Below, one piece after another: positions 4,540 to 29,543 of a DNA stretch of 29,630 bases; positions within the stretch are counted from its first letter, which is position 1; each line of letters opens with the position of its first letter. The position numbers and the translations under genes are program-made. Source of the DNA: a virus; the IMG/VR virus record IMGVR_UViG_3300020204_000264, positions 1 to 29,630 of that record. The stretch is one strand, 5' to 3'. A model generated the notes under the pieces. The model was not told where the DNA came from and searched no databases. It saw only the letters and a program-made list of their open reading frames with translations.

Positions 4540-4547
4540 GATAAATA
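4540..4547 (+). promoter_or_regulatory. T4-type late promoter for gp4
   Basis: GATAAATA on the plus strand, separated by one base from the opposing TATAAATA. It is followed by exactly five bases and then the ATG at 4553, so the predicted transcript would begin at the initiation codon. Confidence 0.7.
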
Positions 4548-4992: not shown

Positions 4993-5000
4993 TATAAATA
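4993..5000 (+). promoter_or_regulatory. T4-type late promoter, leaderless configuration
   Basis: Exact TATAAATA just after the gp4 stop, followed by five bases (ATCAA) and the ATG at 5006. With the usual T4 late spacing the transcript would start at that A. No Shine-Dalgarno sequence fits between promoter and gene. Confidence 0.75.
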
Positions 5001-12244: not shown

Positions 12245-12922
12245 CTAATCGATAGCTTCACCGTCTTCTACTTTTAACTTAATTCGAGTTTTCTTTGGCT
12301 TCGGCTGGTCTACGACCTCCTTATTATCTTGTTTCTTCTTCATCATTTCTACAGCAGCAAAACGTTTCTTCAAACGCGGCTTGATCTCTTCTGCATTATA
12401 CCATAGCTCTATACCGTTAAGGACTTTCTTAAGTTCGTCAGGAGTTAAGAACCCTTCGTAAGCATCCTTCATGAGATTCTCACACTGCTTGACAGTAAAG
12501 TCTGTATGTGCCTTGACTGTTGGGGTGTTACCAGATGAGCCGAATGAGGCTGTATGAACCATCATGTAGGCTGTATCGTAAACGTGTACAGCATGACAGT
12601 ACATAGCTATAATAGAGGCCGCAGAATGACATGCACCCATGATGAACGCTGTGACTTCTGCTTCACTTGATAGGATACCAGAAACTATGGCTGCGGCTGT
12701 ATCAAGGTGACCACCCGGCGAGTTGATATAAAGATGGATCTTATCGTTTGGACCAGCATTGACTAGCACAGAGATAAGTTCTCTATACTTACTTGGTTCC
12801 TCGATCTCTGCATCTAAGAATACTTCATGCACACATGTTGTAGATGTTATCGTATTGATATGTACATTATTAATTAGTCCACTTAATAAATTAGGGACGT
12901 TTTCATTTGCCAATTTAGTCAT
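12245..12922 (-). CDS. ClpP-like serine protease (S14 family)
   Basis: 225 residues from the ATG at 12922, two bases after the previous stop; a longer frame to 12985 would overlap the SleB-like gene and add non-family sequence. The ClpP core is visible: LYINSPGGHLDTAAAI (oxyanion-loop region), the nucleophile Ser near residue 100 in IMGACHSAASI, and His near residue 123 in YMMVHTAS. The Asp is less certain, since ELWYNAEEI replaces the usual motif. The C-terminus is Lys-rich. In T4-like phages of this type, ClpP-like proteases are common and may process prohead or host proteins. No ATPase partner is in the window, so whether it works with host ClpX/ClpA is open. Confidence 0.88.
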   Translation of the reverse strand: MTKLANENVPNLLSGLINNVHINTITSTTCVHEVFLDAEIEEPSKYRELISVLVNAGPNDKIHLYINSPGGHLDTAAAIVSGILSSEAEVTAFIMGACHSAASIIAMYCHAVHVYDTAYMMVHTASFGSSGNTPTVKAHTDFTVKQCENLMKDAYEGFLTPDELKKVLNGIELWYNAEEIKPRLKKRFAAVEMMKKKQDNKEVVDQPKPKKTRIKLKVEDGEAID

Positions 12923-12924
12923 TA

Positions 12925-13452
12925 TTAAATCTTTCTGTAAAAAATATGATTCCCAATAACAGCTGTTACTGTTACGTTTTTCCATTCAGGTTTAACAGCT
13001 TTTGTATGAAAAAACAATGCACCTTTTGTTAAGTCGTACATCTCTCTATAGTTTAAGTACGTATGTAGAGCTATCTGTCTAGCATCTTCAAACGCTTGTT
13101 TCTCGTGTTTAGTGTATCTATATGATTGTGCTTTGATCCTTTTATAATCATCACAGTACCAACTAAACTGGCATACTTCCTCAAACTTTTGAGTCATGGT
13201 AGCACATATAGATCTTGGATAATTTCCAGAATATACGCGGTTTAGTGTGACTAGTGCTACTGCTACCTTACCTTGTTTAGGTTCGTATCCAGCTTCATAA
13301 TAGATATTTTGTGCTAGACATTCTACTTGTTGTTTTTCCACCTTAGTTAATTTTTTAGGTGGTTCTATCTTTTGTCGTGTTTGTTCTGTATGTGCAATTG
13401 TAAAATTACACAGGTAACACAATGCCAAAATGACAGCAAAAGTTCTCTTCAT
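12925..13452 (-). CDS. Exported cell-wall hydrolase, SleB/Hydrolase_2 family
   Basis: 175 residues. Residues 1-20 form a signal peptide (MKRTFAVILALCYLCNFTIA). The domain that follows has ECLAQNIYYEAGYEPKQGKV, ALVTLNRVYSGNYP and EVCQFSWYCDD, the pattern of SleB-type lytic transglycosylase/amidase domains, with the Glu of YYEA the likely catalytic residue. It would act on peptidoglycan in the periplasm. AAGGAG precedes the ATG and a TTTACT/TATAAT promoter lies upstream. Since the GH19 endolysin appears to be the main lysin, this exported enzyme may help weaken the wall early or assist DNA entry or superinfection control; these roles are guesses. Confidence 0.85.
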   Translation of the reverse strand: MKRTFAVILALCYLCNFTIAHTEQTRQKIEPPKKLTKVEKQQVECLAQNIYYEAGYEPKQGKVAVALVTLNRVYSGNYPRSICATMTQKFEEVCQFSWYCDDYKRIKAQSYRYTKHEKQAFEDARQIALHTYLNYREMYDLTKGALFFHTKAVKPEWKNVTVTAVIGNHIFYRKI

Positions 13453-14957: not shown

Positions 14958-15599
14958 TTAAGCTGTTAAAATCTCAATGGCGTGGTTATAATGTTTGATT
15001 CGGTCTTCGAGGCCGATGTAACCACCATTAATTTTCTTAGTCATTAACTTAATATCACCTAGATCAGCTTCACGGTTTAGTTTGTTTTTATTCCAAAACC
15101 ATAATGCTGAATATAATGCGGTAGGTATATCGTCTGTCACGAGGTCAGGATCATTCATCACCGTTTCTGGATCTTCAAAGAAGTCAGTTGCAAACGCTTG
15201 ATAATTAGCCTTACCTGTTAATTGAATTGGACCACGTCCTCTATACTTATAACCTTCTCCGCTTGCAGTATCTCCGTTACCCATACGGCTTGCATATATT
15301 ACGTTTGCAATCATTTCAGGTTTACGGTGATATGGAGCAGCATCTCTACCAGCTGAAGCAAAGTACTTACTAAACAGTTTGTTCAATGCATCAGCAGAGT
15401 AGTTTAGGTTTTCTTGAAGAGTCGTGAAGTCCGCAGATTCATGTGCACACTGAGCCACAAAAGCAGCAACGCGTTTTGCTGTAGTTACTTCAAATTGAGG
15501 TAACTGCTCAAACATTGCCTCATACCACTCGTGTACTTTCTTATTACGAGTAAGTATCTTAGCTAGTTTTTGCTCAGTAAATTCGAAATCGAAGCTCAT
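14958..15599 (-). CDS. Endolysin, GH19 chitinase-like
   Basis: 213 residues from the ATG at 15599, which overlaps the stop of the small membrane-protein gene; the frame is open further to 15632 but that would overlap it more. The GH19 pattern is clear: VAQCAHESADFTTLQENLNY contains the two catalytic Glu, and GYKYRGRGPIQLTGKANYQAF is the family substrate-binding signature. There is no signal peptide and no separate wall-binding domain. In phages of Gram-negative hosts such enzymes cut peptidoglycan glycan strands at lysis. A late promoter at 16066-16073 heads this gene set (FmdB-like, membrane protein, endolysin), consistent with late expression. Confidence 0.9.
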   Translation of the reverse strand: MSFDFEFTEQKLAKILTRNKKVHEWYEAMFEQLPQFEVTTAKRVAAFVAQCAHESADFTTLQENLNYSADALNKLFSKYFASAGRDAAPYHRKPEMIANVIYASRMGNGDTASGEGYKYRGRGPIQLTGKANYQAFATDFFEDPETVMNDPDLVTDDIPTALYSALWFWNKNKLNREADLGDIKLMTKKINGGYIGLEDRIKHYNHAIEILTA

Positions 15600-15739
15600 T
15601 ATTTTGCCACTAAACCTGATACTTTTGCCCATACTGCTTTTGCAAAAGATACAGCTGTGTCAACGATTAGTGTTGCTTTTTGTGGGTATTTTGCACCCAA
15701 ATGAGCACCAACTAAAAATACAATAATGTTTGTTAACAT
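15599..15739 (-). CDS. 46-residue membrane protein, holin candidate
   Basis: 46 residues: MLTNIIVFLVGAHLGAKYP, a short hydrophobic N-terminal segment, then KATLIVDTAVSFAKAVWAKV, an amphipathic helix, ending VAK. AAAGGAG stands at proper distance before the ATG. The stop overlaps the endolysin start (TAATG), so the two are translationally coupled. Size, membrane character and adjacency to the endolysin make it a candidate holin or pinholin, but no family is recognised and only one clear membrane segment is visible. Confidence 0.7.
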   Translation of the reverse strand: MLTNIIVFLVGAHLGAKYPQKATLIVDTAVSFAKAVWAKVSGLVAK

Positions 15740-20433: not shown

Positions 20434-20510
20434 TGGTGGGCCCACATGGACTCGAACCATGGACCAAAGGATTATGAGTCCTCTGCTCTAACCAACTGAG
20501 CTATAGGCCC
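20434..20510 (-). tRNA. tRNA-Ile2 (anticodon CAU, CCA encoded)
   Basis: A full cloverleaf can be drawn: acceptor GGGCCTA with TGGGCCC, D-arm GCTC/GAGC, anticodon stem GAGGA/TCCTT with loop CTCATAA, T-arm CATGG-TTCGAGT-CCATG, discriminator A and encoded CCA. CAU could mean Met, but acceptor pairs C4-G69 and C5-G68, the ACTCATAAT loop and the following TTGGTC resemble tRNA-Ile2, whose C34 is changed to lysidine by host TilS so that it reads AUA. AUA codons are frequent in this A/T-rich phage, which would explain its value. Confidence 0.88.
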
Positions 20511-21788: not shown

Positions 21789-22505
21789 TTAGTAATTTTC
21801 AGCTAAGAATTCAGCTTCGGGGATGCGTGTATGAGTGTTCTGGGAGCCTAAAACCACGACTGATCTCTGGCCCTTATCTGTGGACATAAGCATCGCCAGG
21901 CAGCCTCCGGCAGGCCTTGTATAGCCTGTCTTGGAGATCAGTATGTCCTGACGTTTACCTATGAGAGGGTTAGTGTTCTTAAAGACCCAGAAACGCTTCT
22001 TGGTCTTAATCTTGATCTTTGCCTGTTGAGATGCGTTGACTAATTCTGGATATTTTGCAGCTTCCTGGACTAACTGTGTTAGCTCCATGGCTGTGGATTT
22101 GTTACGTCTATCAAGACCAGTAGCATCATAGACGATGGTGTTGAGTAGGTTAAGCTTAAATAACAAGTGATTCATGTCAGCTATACACCTGTCATATCCA
22201 CCTACATATAACTGACATAATAAGTCTGCAGTTTGGTTATTTGACTTTACTATGGCCATGTCTATCAGCTGATGGCGTGTTATCATACCAAAAGCTTTAG
22301 TCTTGACTGGAGCTTCTATGTTCTCTCCGCTGTTTAATATGGTCATCGCTGTGACTAGTTTTGTGATAGATGCTATTGACCTGACTTCTGCAATATTTTG
22401 CCCCGCGATCACCTTTCCATCTTCATCTGTCACCACCCATGAGTTAGCAGTTATGTCTTGAGCATAGCAGTTGAATGCTAATAAAAGTAAAATTAAGAAC
22501 TTCAT
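21789..22505 (-). CDS. Exported D,D-endopeptidase/carboxypeptidase, PBP7-like (S11 family)
   Basis: 238 residues from the ATG at 22505, which overlaps the cyclase stop (TAATG); an upstream in-frame start at 22538 would lack the signal peptide at its N-terminus. Residues 1-15 are a signal peptide (MKFLILLLLAFNCYA). All three penicillin-binding motifs are intact: S46-I-T-K49, S88-N-N90 and K192-T-G194. The protein is shorter than E. coli PBP7 (PbpG, ~310) and has no C-terminal anchor, so it should be a soluble periplasmic enzyme that trims or cuts peptide cross-links. Presence in a phage, in one operon with an adenylate cyclase, is unusual. Roles could be lysis support, wall loosening for export of fibres, or changed wall stiffness. 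Confidence 0.9.
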   Translation of the reverse strand: MKFLILLLLAFNCYAQDITANSWVVTDEDGKVIAGQNIAEVRSIASITKLVTAMTILNSGENIEAPVKTKAFGMITRHQLIDMAIVKSNNQTADLLCQLYVGGYDRCIADMNHLLFKLNLLNTIVYDATGLDRRNKSTAMELTQLVQEAAKYPELVNASQQAKIKIKTKKRFWVFKNTNPLIGKRQDILISKTGYTRPAGGCLAMLMSTDKGQRSVVVLGSQNTHTRIPEAEFLAENY

Positions 22506-24514
22506 TACTTGCTTGTGGCTCGATATACACCGTCCCACTCAGCAGGGAGACCTTCGTCCATTCGTTCTATCATCTTGTGATAGTAGTCTTTGATAGTAAC
22601 GTTATTATCATCGATGAGTTCTTGTGCCCATTCTGTAGCACGTTTCCAATTACCGCGATAGTATTCTTTTAGATACTCTTCATGTTTATGTTTAATAGTC
22701 TCGCCTATCGTGTATACCTTAACTCCTTCGGTCTTGCCCTTAACAGCGATCGTATCCATCTCTACGACTGAATAAACTTCTTTAGCATACTCTGCGGTCT
22801 TTGTACCTAATACGATACGTACACCATAGTTCTTTGATTGTCCTTCTAAACGGGAAGCAAGATTGACCGCATCACCAAGACAAGTGTAATCAAAACGCTG
22901 GCTGCTACCCATATTCCCAACAACCACGTCGCCGCTGTTAATACCAAGTCCCATACCGAACGCTGGTATATTTTCTTTAGCGATCTCTTCATTGAATTTA
23001 TCCAAATCATTTAACATCTCCAATCCAGTCTTAACTGCATTTAATGCATGATCCTTATCATCTAAAGGAGCATTCCAAAAAGCCATCTGAGCATCACCTA
23101 TATACTTATCAAGTGTACCATTATTTTCAATGATCTTTGCTGTCATGGCTGTCATGTATCTGTTCATGATCTTAGTCAGACCTTGAACGTCTTTACCATA
23201 ATGTTCTGAGATAGTCGTGAAGCCACGAACGTCTGTAAACATGATTGATAATTCTCTAGTCTCACCACCAAGCTTCAATAGCTCTGGGTTCTTTTGTAAC
23301 TTTTCAACCATTGCTGGCGATAAGTATGTACCAAATTGTTTCTTGATCTGTAGCTTTTGGTTTAATTCAGAAATGAACTTAACGGTGTATGCATGACCAT
23401 AGACAACAGACAAGCTAATAATAGGATAAATGCCGTCCAACAGAATACCTTGATGGGCGAACACGTAGCGAGAAGCGTAATATATAGAACCAATAATACT
23501 AATGATAGGAAGAATAGCATATTTCCACCTCGTTAAAAAGATTATGATGATTGATAATACAACTATAGCAAGCATCTCAGCACCATCTGCCCAATCAGGA
23601 CGAGATATGTTGGCGCCAGATGTTAGTGTATCTAAAACTGAAGCTTGTACATAATGAGGATAGACGGCTCCTCGTGGGGTTGCAACGGGATTGTTAAGTC
23701 CGCGTGCCGATAACCCAACGATGACGATACCTCCATCGAATGACTTGGGTAATCCCACAAGACTGTGTTCAATCGGCGTGGAACTCCAATCGACCCATAT
23801 TCTACCCATTGGGTCTGTGACGACCTTGGCGAAGCTAGGTATTCTGACAGCTTCAATCCCGTTTGCGTTTGACTTGACTTGGAAACTTGGGTCTCCAACT
23901 GCAACACGCATTGTTTCAAGACTGATACTTGGGTACAATTGGCCATCACTTGCGACGACCATAGGGATACGACGAACAACACCATCAATTTCAGGTAATA
24001 CATTTACGACTCCTATTCCAGCAGCTTTGCTGTTAAATGATGATATATTGGCTTGAATGCCCGGATAGTTTACTGCATGATCAGAAGCTTTGCCTCCGAT
24101 TTCTGATACTCCCGGTCTAAATGCACCAGGTTTTTGTTTGTCTGATGTTGCGACTTGTGGTAATACTACAGGATGCCTAGTAAGGGTATCAGCCAGTCCA
24201 GCATCTTTTCCAAACCTATCACTATCAGGCATAAACAGATTAAAGACAACAAGACCAGCCCCACGGCTGTAAAGATCTTCGATGATATTTGCATATTGGG
24301 TCCTTGGAAATGGAAATTGCCCAAGGTGTTCTATAGACTTATCATCTATGTTTACGACATGGACTTGTTTTGATTGTACTACAGGTTTACTTGTGATCAG
24401 CGTGTCAAAGTATCTAAGACGAACTGACTCTACAAATGATGGATCTGATACTCTAATGCCTACTAAAACTAATAGGGTGACTAGTGCAAACCATGGGCTA
24501 AGTAATTTTTTCAT
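22505..24514 (-). CDS. Membrane adenylate cyclase with CHASE2 sensor domain (class III)
   Basis: 669 residues. One N-terminal membrane helix (~8-21), an extracytoplasmic CHASE2 domain (~30-310: VRLRYFDTLI, FPFPRTQYANIIEDLYSRGA, ISSFNSKAAGIGVVN), three membrane helices (~313-382) and a class III cyclase domain (~415-605). The catalytic set is complete: metal ligands D428 and D474, substrate residues K470 and D548, transition-state residues N551 and R555; Lys/Asp predicts ATP use and cAMP as product. A helical tail follows. The ATG lies five bases after AATAAATA, so expression late in infection is expected. In bacteria CHASE2 cyclases often sit near FecR genes, and a FecR gene is present about 4 kb away here. 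Confidence 0.95.
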   Translation of the reverse strand: MKKLLSPWFALVTLLVLVGIRVSDPSFVESVRLRYFDTLITSKPVVQSKQVHVVNIDDKSIEHLGQFPFPRTQYANIIEDLYSRGAGLVVFNLFMPDSDRFGKDAGLADTLTRHPVVLPQVATSDKQKPGAFRPGVSEIGGKASDHAVNYPGIQANISSFNSKAAGIGVVNVLPEIDGVVRRIPMVVASDGQLYPSISLETMRVAVGDPSFQVKSNANGIEAVRIPSFAKVVTDPMGRIWVDWSSTPIEHSLVGLPKSFDGGIVIVGLSARGLNNPVATPRGAVYPHYVQASVLDTLTSGANISRPDWADGAEMLAIVVLSIIIIFLTRWKYAILPIISIIGSIYYASRYVFAHQGILLDGIYPIISLSVVYGHAYTVKFISELNQKLQIKKQFGTYLSPAMVEKLQKNPELLKLGGETRELSIMFTDVRGFTTISEHYGKDVQGLTKIMNRYMTAMTAKIIENNGTLDKYIGDAQMAFWNAPLDDKDHALNAVKTGLEMLNDLDKFNEEIAKENIPAFGMGLGINSGDVVVGNMGSSQRFDYTCLGDAVNLASRLEGQSKNYGVRIVLGTKTAEYAKEVYSVVEMDTIAVKGKTEGVKVYTIGETIKHKHEEYLKEYYRGNWKRATEWAQELIDDNNVTIKDYYHKMIERMDEGLPAEWDGVYRATSK

Positions 24515-24519
24515 ATGTT

Positions 24520-24527
24520 TATTTATT
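24520..24527 (-). promoter_or_regulatory. T4-type late promoter of the cyclase, leaderless configuration
   Basis: AATAAATA on the minus strand, overlapping the stop of the upstream gene, then exactly five bases and the ATG at 24514. Same spacing as the plus-strand sites before gp4 and the 5006 gene. Confidence 0.7.
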
Positions 24528-25158
24528 CGTATGTTACTGTATCGCTATCACCTAGTCTCCATTTAGGATTAGTCTCTACCACATACTTCTTGGTGCAGAC
24601 TTTAAAATCAGGGAATAACATCTCTTTTGGATTACTTGCTGCATCAAAGAATATACACCTGTTATTCGGCTGAGCAGCATACTGTCCATTGTTTAGTTGT
24701 ATAAAGTTAAAACTCTTATGATCTTCTGGAACTTCACTGTAACTCGTATCTAGTATGTTTAAGTCTGGAGCTGAATTATCTACCGTAAACATATAGTCAC
24801 CATGATGAAACTGTTTATCTTTAGCATACACCTTACAGCTTAAGTTCCTTAAGAATGCTTTTTGTATGACTGCTATGTCATAACTAAAACAATCCCATAT
24901 CTGTAAAGTGTCTAGTGATAAGAACTTTTCAGGTTCTAGATCAGTCGTTCTACTTACATAAGCATGCAACGGCAACTTATCATATAAAGCTCCGTATCTT
25001 GGGAAGTATGACTCTATCCTAAATGCTTGACTACGAAGGCTCTTGATACTAACCCATATACATGACTCATATTCGCCATGACCAGATTTAAAATCATATA
25101 AGAACTCCTTACGAACATAGCAATGTACTGGAGGCAAGTTAGCTACAAGGAAACTCAT
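24523..25158 (-). CDS. Conserved T4-like phage protein of unknown function
   Basis: 211 residues. MSFLVANLPPVHCYVRKEFL, HGEYESCIWVSIKSLRSQAF, YFPRYGALYDKLPLHAYVSR, LQIWDCFSYDIAVIQKAF and FNFIQLNNGQYAAQPNNRC form a strongly conserved pattern that I know from cyanophage-type T4-like viruses, without function. No signal peptide. It has its own promoter with the ATG six bases after the -10. It is a core phage gene set between cargo genes, which indicates that the surrounding envelope genes were inserted around, or carried with, the phage backbone. Confidence 0.8.
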   Translation of the reverse strand: MSFLVANLPPVHCYVRKEFLYDFKSGHGEYESCIWVSIKSLRSQAFRIESYFPRYGALYDKLPLHAYVSRTTDLEPEKFLSLDTLQIWDCFSYDIAVIQKAFLRNLSCKVYAKDKQFHHGDYMFTVDNSAPDLNILDTSYSEVPEDHKSFNFIQLNNGQYAAQPNNRCIFFDAASNPKEMLFPDFKVCTKKYVVETNPKWRLGDSDTVTYE

Positions 25159-25194: not shown

Positions 25195-26187
25195 TTATTT
25201 AACAGCTTTGATAAATATATCAAAACAATTTTTCCAAGTCCATGTTTTAATAGATAATTCTTGTACTTTAACGTTATCTAATGACTTACATTTTTCTATA
25301 GCAGACTGTAACCCATTGCCATACATGCTTAGATATCCTGTAACACCATATTCAATGATATCTTGTGGACCAGTTACCCTATATGCTGCTACAGGTAATC
25401 CATTACATAAAGCTTCTATGATAACTATACCAAAAGTATCAGTTAGACTTGGGAAAACAAATATGTCGTTCTCTACATATATTTGCTTTAATTCATCTCC
25501 AAATTTATAACCAGTAAAGTTAACCTTTCTGTATTTGCGGATCAGCTGAGGTAAAATAGGCCCGTCTCCGACTACAGTGATATCATACATATTTTGTAAA
25601 TTACATAAGTCTTCTAAGTTCTTTTCTTTGCTTACCCGACCTACATACAAAATCTTTGGAGGCATATTCTTTGTTTTGTCTTTACGCTTTTCTATGAGAT
25701 CTTTTGATACGCCTCTAGTCCATATAACTAGATTTACAAACCCCTTAGATTGCAATTCTATGCTCATCGATTCACTCGGTACTAACACAGCTTTTGAATA
25801 CTTGTGAAACCATTTAAGATACCTATATGTGATAGATGTAGGTATCCATAATAATTTTTTTAAGAATTCTGGAAACTTAGTATGATACGCTGTAGTGTAT
25901 GGTATCTTGTTTGCGTCACAGTAGAACTTTGCAAATAGTCCTAGCGGTCCCTCTGTCGCGATGTGAATACGATCCGCACCCATCTTCTTAATCTTACTGA
26001 TAAAGAACGAAGGAAGGGAAAGTTTGACCTCAGGATAAAAAGGACAGCTAATATGACGGAACTTCCCGGGATCAAGATAAACAATACTATGACCAGCAGA
26101 AACAGCATGATCCTCAATATTTTTGTATGTAGTGACAACGCCATTGACTTGATCTCTTAAATTGTCTGTTACTATTAATATCTTCAT
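25195..26187 (-). CDS. agt: GT4-family glycosyltransferase, Agt-like (glycolipid synthesis)
   Basis: 330 residues. N-terminal Rossmann part with VTDNLRDQVNGVVTTYKNIE, the acceptor-side IHIATEGPLGLFAKFYCDAN and IPYTTAYHTKFPEFL; C-terminal nucleotide-sugar half with ILYVGRVSKEKNLEDL and FPSLTDTFGIVIIEALCNGL (E-x7-E region). This is the pattern of GT4 enzymes that add a sugar to diacylglycerol, such as Agt and SqdX-type proteins. Its ATG overlaps the stop of the PlcP-like gene (ATGA). The pair PlcP then Agt is known from phosphate-stressed bacteria: PlcP cuts phospholipid to diacylglycerol, and Agt glycosylates it. The exact sugar and acceptor cannot be read; a role in LPS or capsule sugar transfer remains possible. 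Confidence 0.8.
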   Translation of the reverse strand: MKILIVTDNLRDQVNGVVTTYKNIEDHAVSAGHSIVYLDPGKFRHISCPFYPEVKLSLPSFFISKIKKMGADRIHIATEGPLGLFAKFYCDANKIPYTTAYHTKFPEFLKKLLWIPTSITYRYLKWFHKYSKAVLVPSESMSIELQSKGFVNLVIWTRGVSKDLIEKRKDKTKNMPPKILYVGRVSKEKNLEDLCNLQNMYDITVVGDGPILPQLIRKYRKVNFTGYKFGDELKQIYVENDIFVFPSLTDTFGIVIIEALCNGLPVAAYRVTGPQDIIEYGVTGYLSMYGNGLQSAIEKCKSLDNVKVQELSIKTWTWKNCFDIFIKAVK

Positions 26188-26927
26188 ATGATCTCATTCC
26201 AATAAATTATTTCCCATTTACCATCTTCATGTTCTACAAGAGCTGAGCATGATTCTACCCAGTCACCATCATTCATGTAGATTATTCCATTGATTGTCTT
26301 AATCTGTGGAGTATGGATATGGCCGCAAATAACTCCATCAAAGTTTTTTCGTTCACAGTATCCTGCAAGGTTTTCTTCGAATTTGAATACAAAATCTATC
26401 GCTTTCTTTACTTGATGTTTAAGAAACTTACTTAATGACCAATAACCAAACCCTAACCTATGTCTTATGTAGTTAAATTTAGTATTGATCCATAATACAC
26501 AATCATAAGCTGTATCGCCAAGAAACCCAATCCATTTACCAACTCTTGTAATACCATCAAACATGTCACCATGTGTTACTAAGAATAGGTTTCCATCAGT
26601 GTCTCTATACTCTGCTTGGTTACATATAGTAATAGAACCTAAAGCAAACTGATTGACGAATGGTCTAAGGAACTCATCATGGTTGCCAGTCACATATGTA
26701 ACCTTAGTTCCACGTTTAGCATAACCTAGTATCCTACGGATAACATTAGTATGGCTTTGCTTCCATTTCCATTTGTTCTGCTGTATCTTCCATCCATCTA
26801 TGATGTCTCCTACTAAGAACAGATTATCACATTCATGGTGTTTAAGGAAATTATTAAGTAGATCAGCCTTAGCATCCTTAGAACCAAGATGAGTGTCAGA
26901 GATGCAAATAGTCTTATACTTTTTCAT
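26184..26927 (-). CDS. plcP: Calcineurin-like phosphoesterase, PlcP-like phospholipase C (LpxH relatives)
   Basis: 247 residues. All metal motifs are present: D11-x-H13, G40-D41, G81-N-H-D84, H119 in THGD and G202-H-I-H205. The sequence ISDTHLGSKDAKADLL, LVGDIIDGWKIQQNKW, YDCVLWINTKFNYIRHRLGF and YMNDGDWVESCSALVEH is nearer to the PlcP group (bacterial phospholipase C of phosphate-dependent lipid remodelling) than to E. coli LpxH. It is expected to act at the inner face of the inner membrane. A late promoter GATAAATA lies four bases before the ATG. Together with the Agt-like gene it forms a two-gene lipid-renovation set. Database labels such as UDP-2,3-diacylglucosamine pyrophosphatase are the main alternative. 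Confidence 0.85.
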   Translation of the reverse strand: MKKYKTICISDTHLGSKDAKADLLNNFLKHHECDNLFLVGDIIDGWKIQQNKWKWKQSHTNVIRRILGYAKRGTKVTYVTGNHDEFLRPFVNQFALGSITICNQAEYRDTDGNLFLVTHGDMFDGITRVGKWIGFLGDTAYDCVLWINTKFNYIRHRLGFGYWSLSKFLKHQVKKAIDFVFKFEENLAGYCERKNFDGVICGHIHTPQIKTINGIIYMNDGDWVESCSALVEHEDGKWEIIYWNEII

Positions 26928-26931
26928 TTGT

Positions 26932-26939
26932 TATTTATC
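26932..26939 (-). promoter_or_regulatory. T4-type late promoter of plcP-agt
   Basis: GATAAATA on the minus strand, overlapping the stop of the curlin-like gene, then four bases (ACAA) and the ATG at 26927. No Shine-Dalgarno sequence and no pho-box-like repeat is visible. Confidence 0.68.
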
Positions 26940-28462
26940 TATGGTTGTGTGATGCTTGTTGAGCAACCTGCAGCAGTAACACAACTTTGTTGGATACTGT
27001 AAACTTGATTAGTTGATCCTGACTGATTAAGGTTTAATGTAGCTGCTCCACCAGAATTTGTTAAGTCTATGGTTGCCGCATGGTTACCTGAACCAGACTG
27101 AAGTATGGTCGTGTTATGACCAGGACCAGTTAGTTTAAGGTCTAAGTAGTGTTGACCAGAATCTTGCTGAGTAGTCGACACAGTGTTATTATTACCAGTT
27201 ACGCTTTGAAATAAAGTCTTGCTACCAGATCCAGTTTGTAAGTTTAATATACTGTTATTGCTTCCAGCCACAGTCGAATGATTAAAATGACCAGATCCTG
27301 AAGTCGTCCCATCCACTTGTCTTGTAGTGATATTGTTTGAGCTACCGTTTAGGTTAAAGTATAAGTAATGATTATTACTATCAGCCAAAGGCGTAGTGCC
27401 ATCAGAGTTCTTTCCTTGTTTCAAGTTAAAAGTATTATTATCTCCCGTAGAATATAGTTCTATCCTAGCTTTACCCGTAACTGTAGCTCCTTGACTAATA
27501 TCAAAGGTGTTGTTATTTCCAGACTGTTCAACGTATATCTCGTTACCATGTTGTCCTTGTCTGATAGTATTTGCATTGTTCTTTGTAGTCGTTTGTGCTG
27601 GTGTTATTCCAGAACTGTAAGATGGGCCTGGAGCTGGAGGAGGTGGAGCAGAGCTACCAGCATTTGGTGTTACTGGTGTAAACGTTTGTCCATTGAGTGT
27701 AGTAGTTCCTTGCATGACGTCTATGAATAAGATAGGACTCAATGCAGTGTCACCTAAGTTAAACGATGCAAAGCCTAAAGTATAACTACCATTTTCTGGA
27801 ACAGTAAACTGAGCTACTTGCCATCCTGTAGCTCCATAACTGCCTGTAGCATAGTTACCGGTTCCAGGATTTGTAAAACCTAACAATGCATATCTTTGTG
27901 CAAGGTTGTTTAGTGTTGGCATGATATTAGCATTACTAGTGTGTGTTAGTGTCATGATACTACCGTCATTATATGGTGTGTAGTCTGTACTCAAGTATTG
28001 CCAAGCAATCGTGTATGTTACACCAGTTTGTAACGTAAAAGTTTTTTTCATCCAGCTAGAATTAGTTGGAGTAGGGTTTCCACCTCCACCGTTTTGTGAT
28101 TGATATGTCAGGTATTGTTTAATAGCAGTATTTTCAGTGCCAGTCAACCCTAAGCTGCTGATAGCACTATCAAAAGTAACAGTGTTTGAAGATCCAGCTT
28201 GTATACTAGCCATATAAGATCCATATGGGTTTATGTTCCACGTCTTACCTCCACCTGGACTATAGTTTGTAACTCCTGTGGTAAGAGCTACACCCACTCC
28301 TGTAGAACTCCATGTACTCTTCGTAGCGGCTAATGTTCCAGAAACTGTCCACCCGTCTATGCTATTATTTTCAAAGCCTATACCTAAAGTTTCAGCTTTT
28401 GCACCTAAGCAAAATAACAATAGACTAATTTTGAGTAGCGTTAATAACCGTGTTACCACCAT
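26939..28462 (-). CDS. Exported beta-sandwich protein with C-terminal curlin-type repeats
   Basis: 507 residues. Residues ~1-23 are a signal peptide (TLLKISLLLFCLGAKA). Residues ~24-265 look like a beta-sandwich of the carbohydrate-binding or PEP-CTERM type (IGFENNSIDGWTVSGT, GWQVAQFTVPENGSYTLGF, LSPILFIDVMQG). A Pro-rich linker (SAPPPPAPGPS) leads to ~210 residues of curlin-like repeats with regular Asn/Gln/Gly (NEIYVEQSGNNNTFDISQG, NTTILQSGSGNHAATIDL, LNLNQSGSTNQVYSIQQ). The last 15 residues hold two Cys. The ATG lies inside the last codons of fecR (38-base overlap). It could form amyloid-like fibres or an adhesin on the infected cell, or be part of the virion. No CsgG-type exporter is visible in this window. 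Confidence 0.82.
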   Translation of the reverse strand: MVVTRLLTLLKISLLLFCLGAKAETLGIGFENNSIDGWTVSGTLAATKSTWSSTGVGVALTTGVTNYSPGGGKTWNINPYGSYMASIQAGSSNTVTFDSAISSLGLTGTENTAIKQYLTYQSQNGGGGNPTPTNSSWMKKTFTLQTGVTYTIAWQYLSTDYTPYNDGSIMTLTHTSNANIMPTLNNLAQRYALLGFTNPGTGNYATGSYGATGWQVAQFTVPENGSYTLGFASFNLGDTALSPILFIDVMQGTTTLNGQTFTPVTPNAGSSAPPPPAPGPSYSSGITPAQTTTKNNANTIRQGQHGNEIYVEQSGNNNTFDISQGATVTGKARIELYSTGDNNTFNLKQGKNSDGTTPLADSNNHYLYFNLNGSSNNITTRQVDGTTSGSGHFNHSTVAGSNNSILNLQTGSGSKTLFQSVTGNNNTVSTTQQDSGQHYLDLKLTGPGHNTTILQSGSGNHAATIDLTNSGGAATLNLNQSGSTNQVYSIQQSCVTAAGCSTSITQP

Positions 28463-29543
28463 TGTTAATCCTATTCTTGATCTCTACTGGTCCTTGAGTT
28501 TGTGTTATGGTTGTATTTTGATTTTTTGGAGTCGTGATGCATTGTACATCTCCGTTACCTTCACGACATAATGTGACTTGTAGATCATCGACTTCAACTA
28601 ATACACCAGAAGTTGGTATATAATCTGGTAATAATCCAGACTTAGTCTTACCTAATAGATCTAATTGAGCTGCTAATTGTGCATTGATGATGTCTAGTAT
28701 GTTTGCTAATAAATCATTATCTAAGAAGTTTCGATCTAGCTTGCTCTTATATGTCTCAGCTGCCTGTTTTTCTAACACGTTTATGAGTTTGTTCTCCGCT
28801 AAGAAGTCTACATCTAGTGCACCTTTTACTTCAGATCTCTTCTTAGATTTATCTTCATCAGACTCTCTAAGCTCTTTTGGTGGACTTAATATGAGTATGT
28901 TACTTATTTGAGTTTCATCTAAGTTTAAAGTAACTGGTTTAAACGGCTTACTATCTCTGTTATCAACCCTCGTGGCTTGAAACGGTTGATCTAATACAAC
29001 TTTGCCTTCGTCTGTAAGTACTTCGATTTTACCAGTCTTACAATCAAGTATGACGTCTTTATAATCTTTAGGACAACTTGGTAATAAGATTATGGTGCTC
29101 CTACCTAACTCGTCTACTGTAGCAGTAAAGTCTGTACCTCTGACTGCGATAGTAGCGCTTGGTGTATTGATCTTAACGTTGTCTGGGTTATTATGTGCGA
29201 CTGCACCTGATGCATAACGTACTGTGCCTAAAGCGACCTTCATTGCAAGCTTACCACCCTTCTTGCTATTAGGGTCATACACAAAGTCATCGATGACTAG
29301 CTTACTGTTTTCACTTACTTGTACTCTTGTGTCGTCAGCAAAAGTTATACCTGTTTTGCCTTGAGCCGTCTTGACGACGTCGTTCATCTCTACACCTATA
29401 CCTTTATTTCCGGTAAGACTAGAGCCTTTACGTTGGATGTTTGCGGGGGTGTTTTGAAGTTCAGTTATACTACCCACGGCCGCAAGTGTTAGTTGCGGCC
29501 AGAGCAATATGATACATATTAATTTCCAGTAGTAATGTTCCAT
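28425..29543 (-). CDS. Exported FecR-domain protein with curlin-like C-terminal end
   Basis: 372 residues. Signal peptide ~1-21 (MEHYYWKLICIILLWPQLTLA). The FecR domain (~30-165) is visible in VVKTAQGKTGITFADDTRVQ, VSENSKLVIDDFVYDP, LAMKVALGTVRYASG and NTPSATIAVRGTDFTA. It has no N-terminal cytoplasmic part or membrane anchor like E. coli FecR, so it is probably periplasmic or exported. A charged helical region follows (~235-310), and the last 30 residues (NTTITQTQGPVEIKNRINNG) resemble a curlin repeat. It overlaps the upstream curlin-like gene by 25 bases and the downstream one by 38, so all three are made together. FecR domains of this sort are often found with CHASE2 cyclases; that link is from family knowledge. 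Confidence 0.85.
   Translation of the reverse strand: MEHYYWKLICIILLWPQLTLAAVGSITELQNTPANIQRKGSSLTGNKGIGVEMNDVVKTAQGKTGITFADDTRVQVSENSKLVIDDFVYDPNSKKGGKLAMKVALGTVRYASGAVAHNNPDNVKINTPSATIAVRGTDFTATVDELGRSTIILLPSCPKDYKDVILDCKTGKIEVLTDEGKVVLDQPFQATRVDNRDSKPFKPVTLNLDETQISNILILSPPKELRESDEDKSKKRSEVKGALDVDFLAENKLINVLEKQAAETYKSKLDRNFLDNDLLANILDIINAQLAAQLDLLGKTKSGLLPDYIPTSGVLVEVDDLQVTLCREGNGDVQCITTPKNQNTTITQTQGPVEIKNRINNGGNTVINATQN

Follow-up and report, generated by a model that had tools for sequence, protein, structure and literature searches.

A predicted lipid-renovation gene pair, plcP-agt, within a phage curli operon

Three kinds of described system bear on the locus reported here. In bacteria such as SAR11 strain HTCC7211 and Pseudomonas aeruginosa (PA3219-PA3218), it is established that PlcP yields diacylglycerol and that Agt, encoded in the same operon, yields a glycolipid (PMC4796936, PMC8231724, PMC8528852); for P. 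aeruginosa, the function of plcP-agt has been demonstrated with mutants (PMC8528852). Bacteria employ the two genes to exchange phospholipids of the membrane for phosphate-free sugar lipids. Phages, in turn, carry phosphate auxiliary genes (PstS-like, PhoH), and the pelagimyophages have a curli operon ordered csgF-csgG-curlin-FecR-curlin-cyclase, as in HTVC008M and Melnitz (PMC7029224, PMC9004378). A literature search for phage plcP found no paper reporting plcP-agt in a phage.

The DNA analysed here, a 29.6-kb virus record referred to throughout as the window, contains such a pair (Table 1). The closest counterparts of its single-strand-binding protein, at approximately 50% identity, are those in Methylophilales phage Melnitz and Pelagibacter phage HTVC008M. 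The window pair shares with the bacterial operon both protein families, the gene order, the metal and catalytic residues and, as in several bacterial members, a short overlap of the genes. Unlike its bacterial counterparts, it is phage-borne, lies in a curli operon and follows a late-type motif, with no Pho box found by an admittedly weak scan; moreover, the second gene of the phage pair is often exchanged for a GT2 transferase. A role in phosphate supply may be common to this pair and to the PstS-like and PhoH genes, which adjoin plcP in some phages, but the window pair would act on membrane lipid rather than on transport. The enzyme families are known; what is new is that they occur in a phage and in a curli context, under late-type control, and that the partner is swapped.

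Table 1. Features of the window around the plcP-agt pair
Feature	Coordinates	Strand	Basis or remark
FecR-domain gene of curli operon	28425..29543	-	Pfam, operon comparison
Gene at second curlin-repeat position of curli operon, upstream of plcP	26939..28462	-	Order and sequence match HTVC008M and Melnitz
Late-promoter-like motif GATAAATA	26932..26939	-	4 nt before plcP ATG; transcription inferred
plcP-like metallophosphoesterase, 247 aa	26184..26927	-	ORF, Pfam, motifs, tree
agt-like GT4 glycosyltransferase, 330 aa	25195..26187	-	ORF, Pfam, residues, tree
phrog_3704 gene of unknown function, downstream of agt	24523..25158	-	
CHASE2 adenylate/guanylate cyclase gene	22505..24514	-	Own AATAAATA 5 nt before ATG
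D-Ala-D-Ala endopeptidase-like gene (Peptidase_S11), after cyclase	21789..22538	-	

A preliminary description of the window had claimed a PlcP-like phosphoesterase with all metal motifs and a GT4 glycosyltransferase sharing four bases with it, and both claims are borne out. The two open reading frames, as then delimited, are uninterrupted, and an ATGA common to the plcP stop (26184) and the agt start (26187) accounts for the overlap. The phosphoesterase matches Pfam Metallophos (9e-12) and has the full set of five metal motifs (D11-x-H13, G40DIID44, G81NHD84, H119GD and G202HIH205), while the transferase matches Glyco_trans_1_4 (4.8e-20) and Glyco_transf_4 (3.7e-12). Identical copies of the pair occur in two other contigs, and further contigs encode transferases 68-84% identical adjoining PlcP proteins 82-96% identical; a chimeric assembly is ruled out as the source of the pair by these several independent contigs.

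Two phage metallophosphoesterases of the same family, from Pelagibacter phage Mosig (MT647606; 47% identical to the window protein) and Synechococcus phage S-SRM01 (MW015081; 36%), carry the annotation UDP-2,3-diacylglucosamine hydrolase or diphosphatase and, unlike that of the window, have no Agt neighbour. The hydrolase name attached to the Mosig relative, together with the assignment of most pelagimyophage transferases to lipopolysaccharide (PMC7029224), speaks for a reading in which an LpxH-type phosphoesterase and an LPS or O-antigen transferase modify lipopolysaccharide; we consider this most improbable. In a tree of 108 proteins, with LpxH rows taken from Escherichia coli and from six genomes in which a PlcP homologue is encoded as well, all phage phosphoesterases group with bacterial PlcP homologues and LpxH forms a separate clade (support 100). 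The alignment has GNHD or GNHE in every phage and PlcP row at the site where LpxH has GNRD, and the window protein reaches only 32.7 bits against the curated LpxH model, far under the cut-off of 190. LpxH identity is rejected on the tree, the motif and this NCBIfam score, and a placement inside true LpxH, which would have refuted the preliminary description, was not obtained. The nearest solved structures are those of LpxH at approximately 20% identity, as fits a sister family; over the helical cap, the structure model has no more than moderate confidence. Membership of the window protein in the PlcP family is confirmed by tree and motifs, its Mn-dependent phospholipase C activity on phosphatidylglycerol and phosphatidylethanolamine being inferred. 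The window PlcP group constitutes one phage clade (SH-aLRT 95) from which the Mosig protein branches apart, so plcP was probably acquired by phages more than once. These results also suggest that viral lpxH calls, for example in PMC10653327, merit a recheck as possible plcP.

The transferase likewise separates from enzymes of lipopolysaccharide and capsule synthesis, among which the pair as described could not have stood. The phage GT4 proteins form one clade (99/97) nested among the Agts encoded beside bacterial plcP, while other GT4s are separated from the Agt group at 100/99. A wider, quick tree leaves the GT4s of LPS and colanic acid synthesis in E. coli (waaG, waaB, wcaC, wcaI and wcaL) outside the Agt group, albeit on very long branches, and relatives in bacteria pair with plcP, which further weakens the lipopolysaccharide reading; on tree placement, an LPS or capsule transferase identity is rejected. 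The residues essential in the SAR11 enzyme GTcp have been established by mutation (PMC8231724). Taking the positions from that paper and matching them by motif, not by alignment to the GTcp sequence, we find G16, G80, G83, H102, T157, R158, R184, K189, D250-G253 and E258 in the window protein, as well as the required Trp, at 316 or 318; the catalytic, donor and diacylglycerol residues are all retained. The catalytic Asp, kept in the window protein, is replaced by Glu in eight of 14 other phage Agts, a change that costs GTcp more than 90% of its activity (PMC8231724). The structure model is confident and has a GT-B fold. Assignment to the plcP-adjacent Agt type is supported, and glycosyl-diacylglycerol synthesis is inferred.

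In both HTVC008M and Melnitz the second curlin gene is followed directly by the cyclase gene, without plcP-agt, whereas the window has the pair in between; gene order therefore suggests that plcP-agt-phrog_3704 was inserted into the curli operon. The gene at the second curlin position matched no Pfam family. The order curli-plcP-agt-cyclase is also observed in loci L006, L010 and L012, curli-plcP-agt in L017 and L004, and curli-plcP-agt with the cyclase further on in L061, while L018-L020 have plcP at the curli position without agt there. Many other loci with plcP and a glycosyltransferase have no curli genes within reach. The phrog_3704 gene, for which no Pfam family match was found, often travels with plcP, its cyanophage annotations varying among PurM, ferredoxin and hypothetical. 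Elsewhere in the window, ClpP-like protease and chitinase/lysozyme-like genes at 12245-12985(-) and 14958-15632(-) were judged by eye only, with no library check, and ARAGORN places a tRNA-Met at 20434-20510(-).

On the evidence of gene content, plcP with an exchangeable second gene forms a module that is widespread among phages, present in dozens of aquatic phage sequences. Across 79 viral loci, the slot after plcP holds Agt in 34, a GT2 transferase in 30, the ribonucleotide reductase small subunit in six and other genes in six, and is cut off in three; a GT4 or GT2 thus stands next to plcP in 64 of the 76 uncut loci, and no locus has both. Clustering at 95% PlcP identity gave 31 clusters, among them 12 with Agt only, nine with GT2 only and two mixed. 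The mixed clusters indicate a change of partner next to an almost unaltered PlcP, which fits a shared product, diacylglycerol. The GT2 protein is unrelated to Agt and its substrate is unknown; a search of 289 genomes for close bacterial kin returned only weak matches. In some phages, no transferase gene adjoins plcP. A T4-type major capsid gene was detected in four of the 16 viral records searched (L017, L038, L047 and L054, which are larger, at 164-383 kb) and gave no match in the other 12, many of them fragments. A fatty-acid desaturase gene adjoins plcP in several phage loci, and a PstS-like gene lies near it in five phage sequences (L029, L032, L038, L049 and Mosig). We put at even odds the broader proposition that aquatic T4-like phages, jumbo phages included, possess a late-expressed modular unit of PlcP with an interchangeable GT4 or GT2, often accompanied by desaturase, PstS or curli genes, that would convert the phospholipid of the infected host to glycolipid without phosphate.

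Several details of these loci were recorded separately. The GT2-family protein that replaces Agt after plcP is about 235 aa long, as at 6746-7450 of L054, and recurs in 29 other viral loci. The plcP gene overlaps the ribonucleotide reductase small-subunit gene in L021-L024, L027 and L028. Genes for PstS-like phosphate-binding proteins at most about 2 kb from phage plcP were seen in L029, L032, L038, L049 and L002.

The preliminary description also held that the pair has a late promoter and is under the phage late programme rather than a Pho box. Counted with one mismatch, TATAAATA occurs 54 times in the window against 75.8 expected, at or below chance, but rejecting the promoter on such raw counts turned out to be a mistake when the position of the motif was considered. 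Of 85 gene starts in HTVC008M, Melnitz and Mosig, 15 have ATAAATA ahead of them (other permutations of the same letters, at most four), ten of the 15 at exactly 5 nt from the ATG; the same position test on seven low-GC bacterial loci found none. Among the genes so preceded are the structural genes gp2, gp48 and tape measure, together with CsgF, the cyclase gene of Melnitz and, at 5 nt, Mosig plcP. Late genes of pelagi- and methylomyophages have NATAAATA approximately 5 nt ahead of the ATG; the motif occurs in the window at 4540-4547(+), 4993-5000(+), 24520-24527(-) and 26932-26939(-), as well as in L237, L236 and L002. This position-locked motif in three isolate phages rescues the promoter claim, which we now find credible, although the gap at window plcP is one nucleotide short of the usual 5. 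Late promoters of pelagimyophages could not be predicted in an earlier study (PMC7029224). Because T4 late start sites and the TATA box are separated by about one turn of the helix (PMC2988020), mRNAs with the motif some 5 nt from the ATG would be nearly leaderless, and the late mRNAs of these phages may be so in general.

Late-type control of plcP-agt is supported by this motif, its timing being inferred; the evidence that a Pho box is lacking is weak. None was seen near window plcP, and a scan allowing at most two mismatches found 0 in 81 phage against 13 in 124 bacterial upstream regions, but the P. aeruginosa site, too, escaped that scan. Furthermore, the curlin-repeat gene upstream has a stop codon that overlaps GATAAATA. 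Given this overlap, the tight packing of the genes and the position of the pair inside the curli/cyclase operon, read-through from the upstream curli genes and a private promoter are equally likely.

Our preferred reading, to which we assign a probability of roughly 0.7, sees in the pair a lipid-renovation unit carried by the phage, whose enzyme activity, late timing and benefit are inferred. PlcP would cut the phosphate-bearing head group off phosphatidylglycerol and phosphatidylethanolamine to leave diacylglycerol, which Agt would glycosylate with a UDP-sugar as donor, the product being a glycolipid free of phosphate. The two genes are probably translationally coupled through the ATGA and their transcription is probably late, with the 26932-26939 site, read-through of the curli operon or both as its source. 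That the phage pair acts like the bacterial one is inferred from family, residues and pairing; the same gene order in many bacteria, including the P. aeruginosa pair, supports it. The likely benefits are an altered envelope and a source of phosphate-bearing head groups on which phage DNA synthesis could draw, and phages of this kind probably rebuild host membranes during infection, though the activity itself is inferred. Counted against lipid renovation are the Glu replacements in other phage Agts, the possibility of read-through, the plcP genes that lack a transferase neighbour and the unidentified GT2 substrate. A further point is that PlcP liberates a phosphorylated head group, not free phosphate, and use of the phosphate needs another step.

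What benefit was selected is less settled. The glycolipids could be made for the sake of a changed envelope, in superinfection exclusion or in preparation for lysis together with the curli pore, cyclase and peptidase, and not for phosphate; we keep this as a tentative possibility. The recurrence of the curli-plcP-agt context in the six loci named above, the endopeptidase gene downstream and the proposal that lipid change alters phage binding (PMC9804370) favour it, while the PstS-like neighbours in five sequences and the many loci without curli genes within reach do not. The shared operon with the CHASE2 cyclase, and a fold common to the phosphodiesterase Rv0805, would also allow a phosphodiesterase that resets the cyclic-nucleotide signal of that cyclase. 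Such a role is very unlikely: the protein sits within the PlcP family in the tree, the glycosyltransferase pairing persists in many loci without a nearby cyclase, and HTVC008M and Melnitz have the cyclase without the phosphoesterase. If lipid renovation is indeed the function, these phages would mine the host membrane for phosphate beyond PstS-type scavenging, altering that membrane meanwhile. By rough estimate, phospholipids number about 2-3 million in a SAR11-sized cell, and phosphates about 0.28 million in a 140-kb genome. Membrane phosphate would then suffice for about ten genomes, close to the burst of about 9 given for cultured SAR11 myophages (PMC7029224).

Low-GC, small alphaproteobacterial genomes, probably SAR11-like, also carry plcP-agt. 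A recent transfer from SAR11 was rejected, the phage genes having no supported branching inside these alphaproteobacterial sequences. The sequence that comes nearest to the phage transferases in the quick tree is that of L140; considered as a candidate phage contig, L140 looks chromosomal, with tsaD-, dnaG- and rpoD-like genes. In one low-GC alphaproteobacterial genome (L211), two plcP-agt pairs face each other approximately 7 kb apart, and a P. aeruginosa plasmid (L232; NZ_CP042268.1) bears an apparent copy of the chromosomal plcP-agt1 region.
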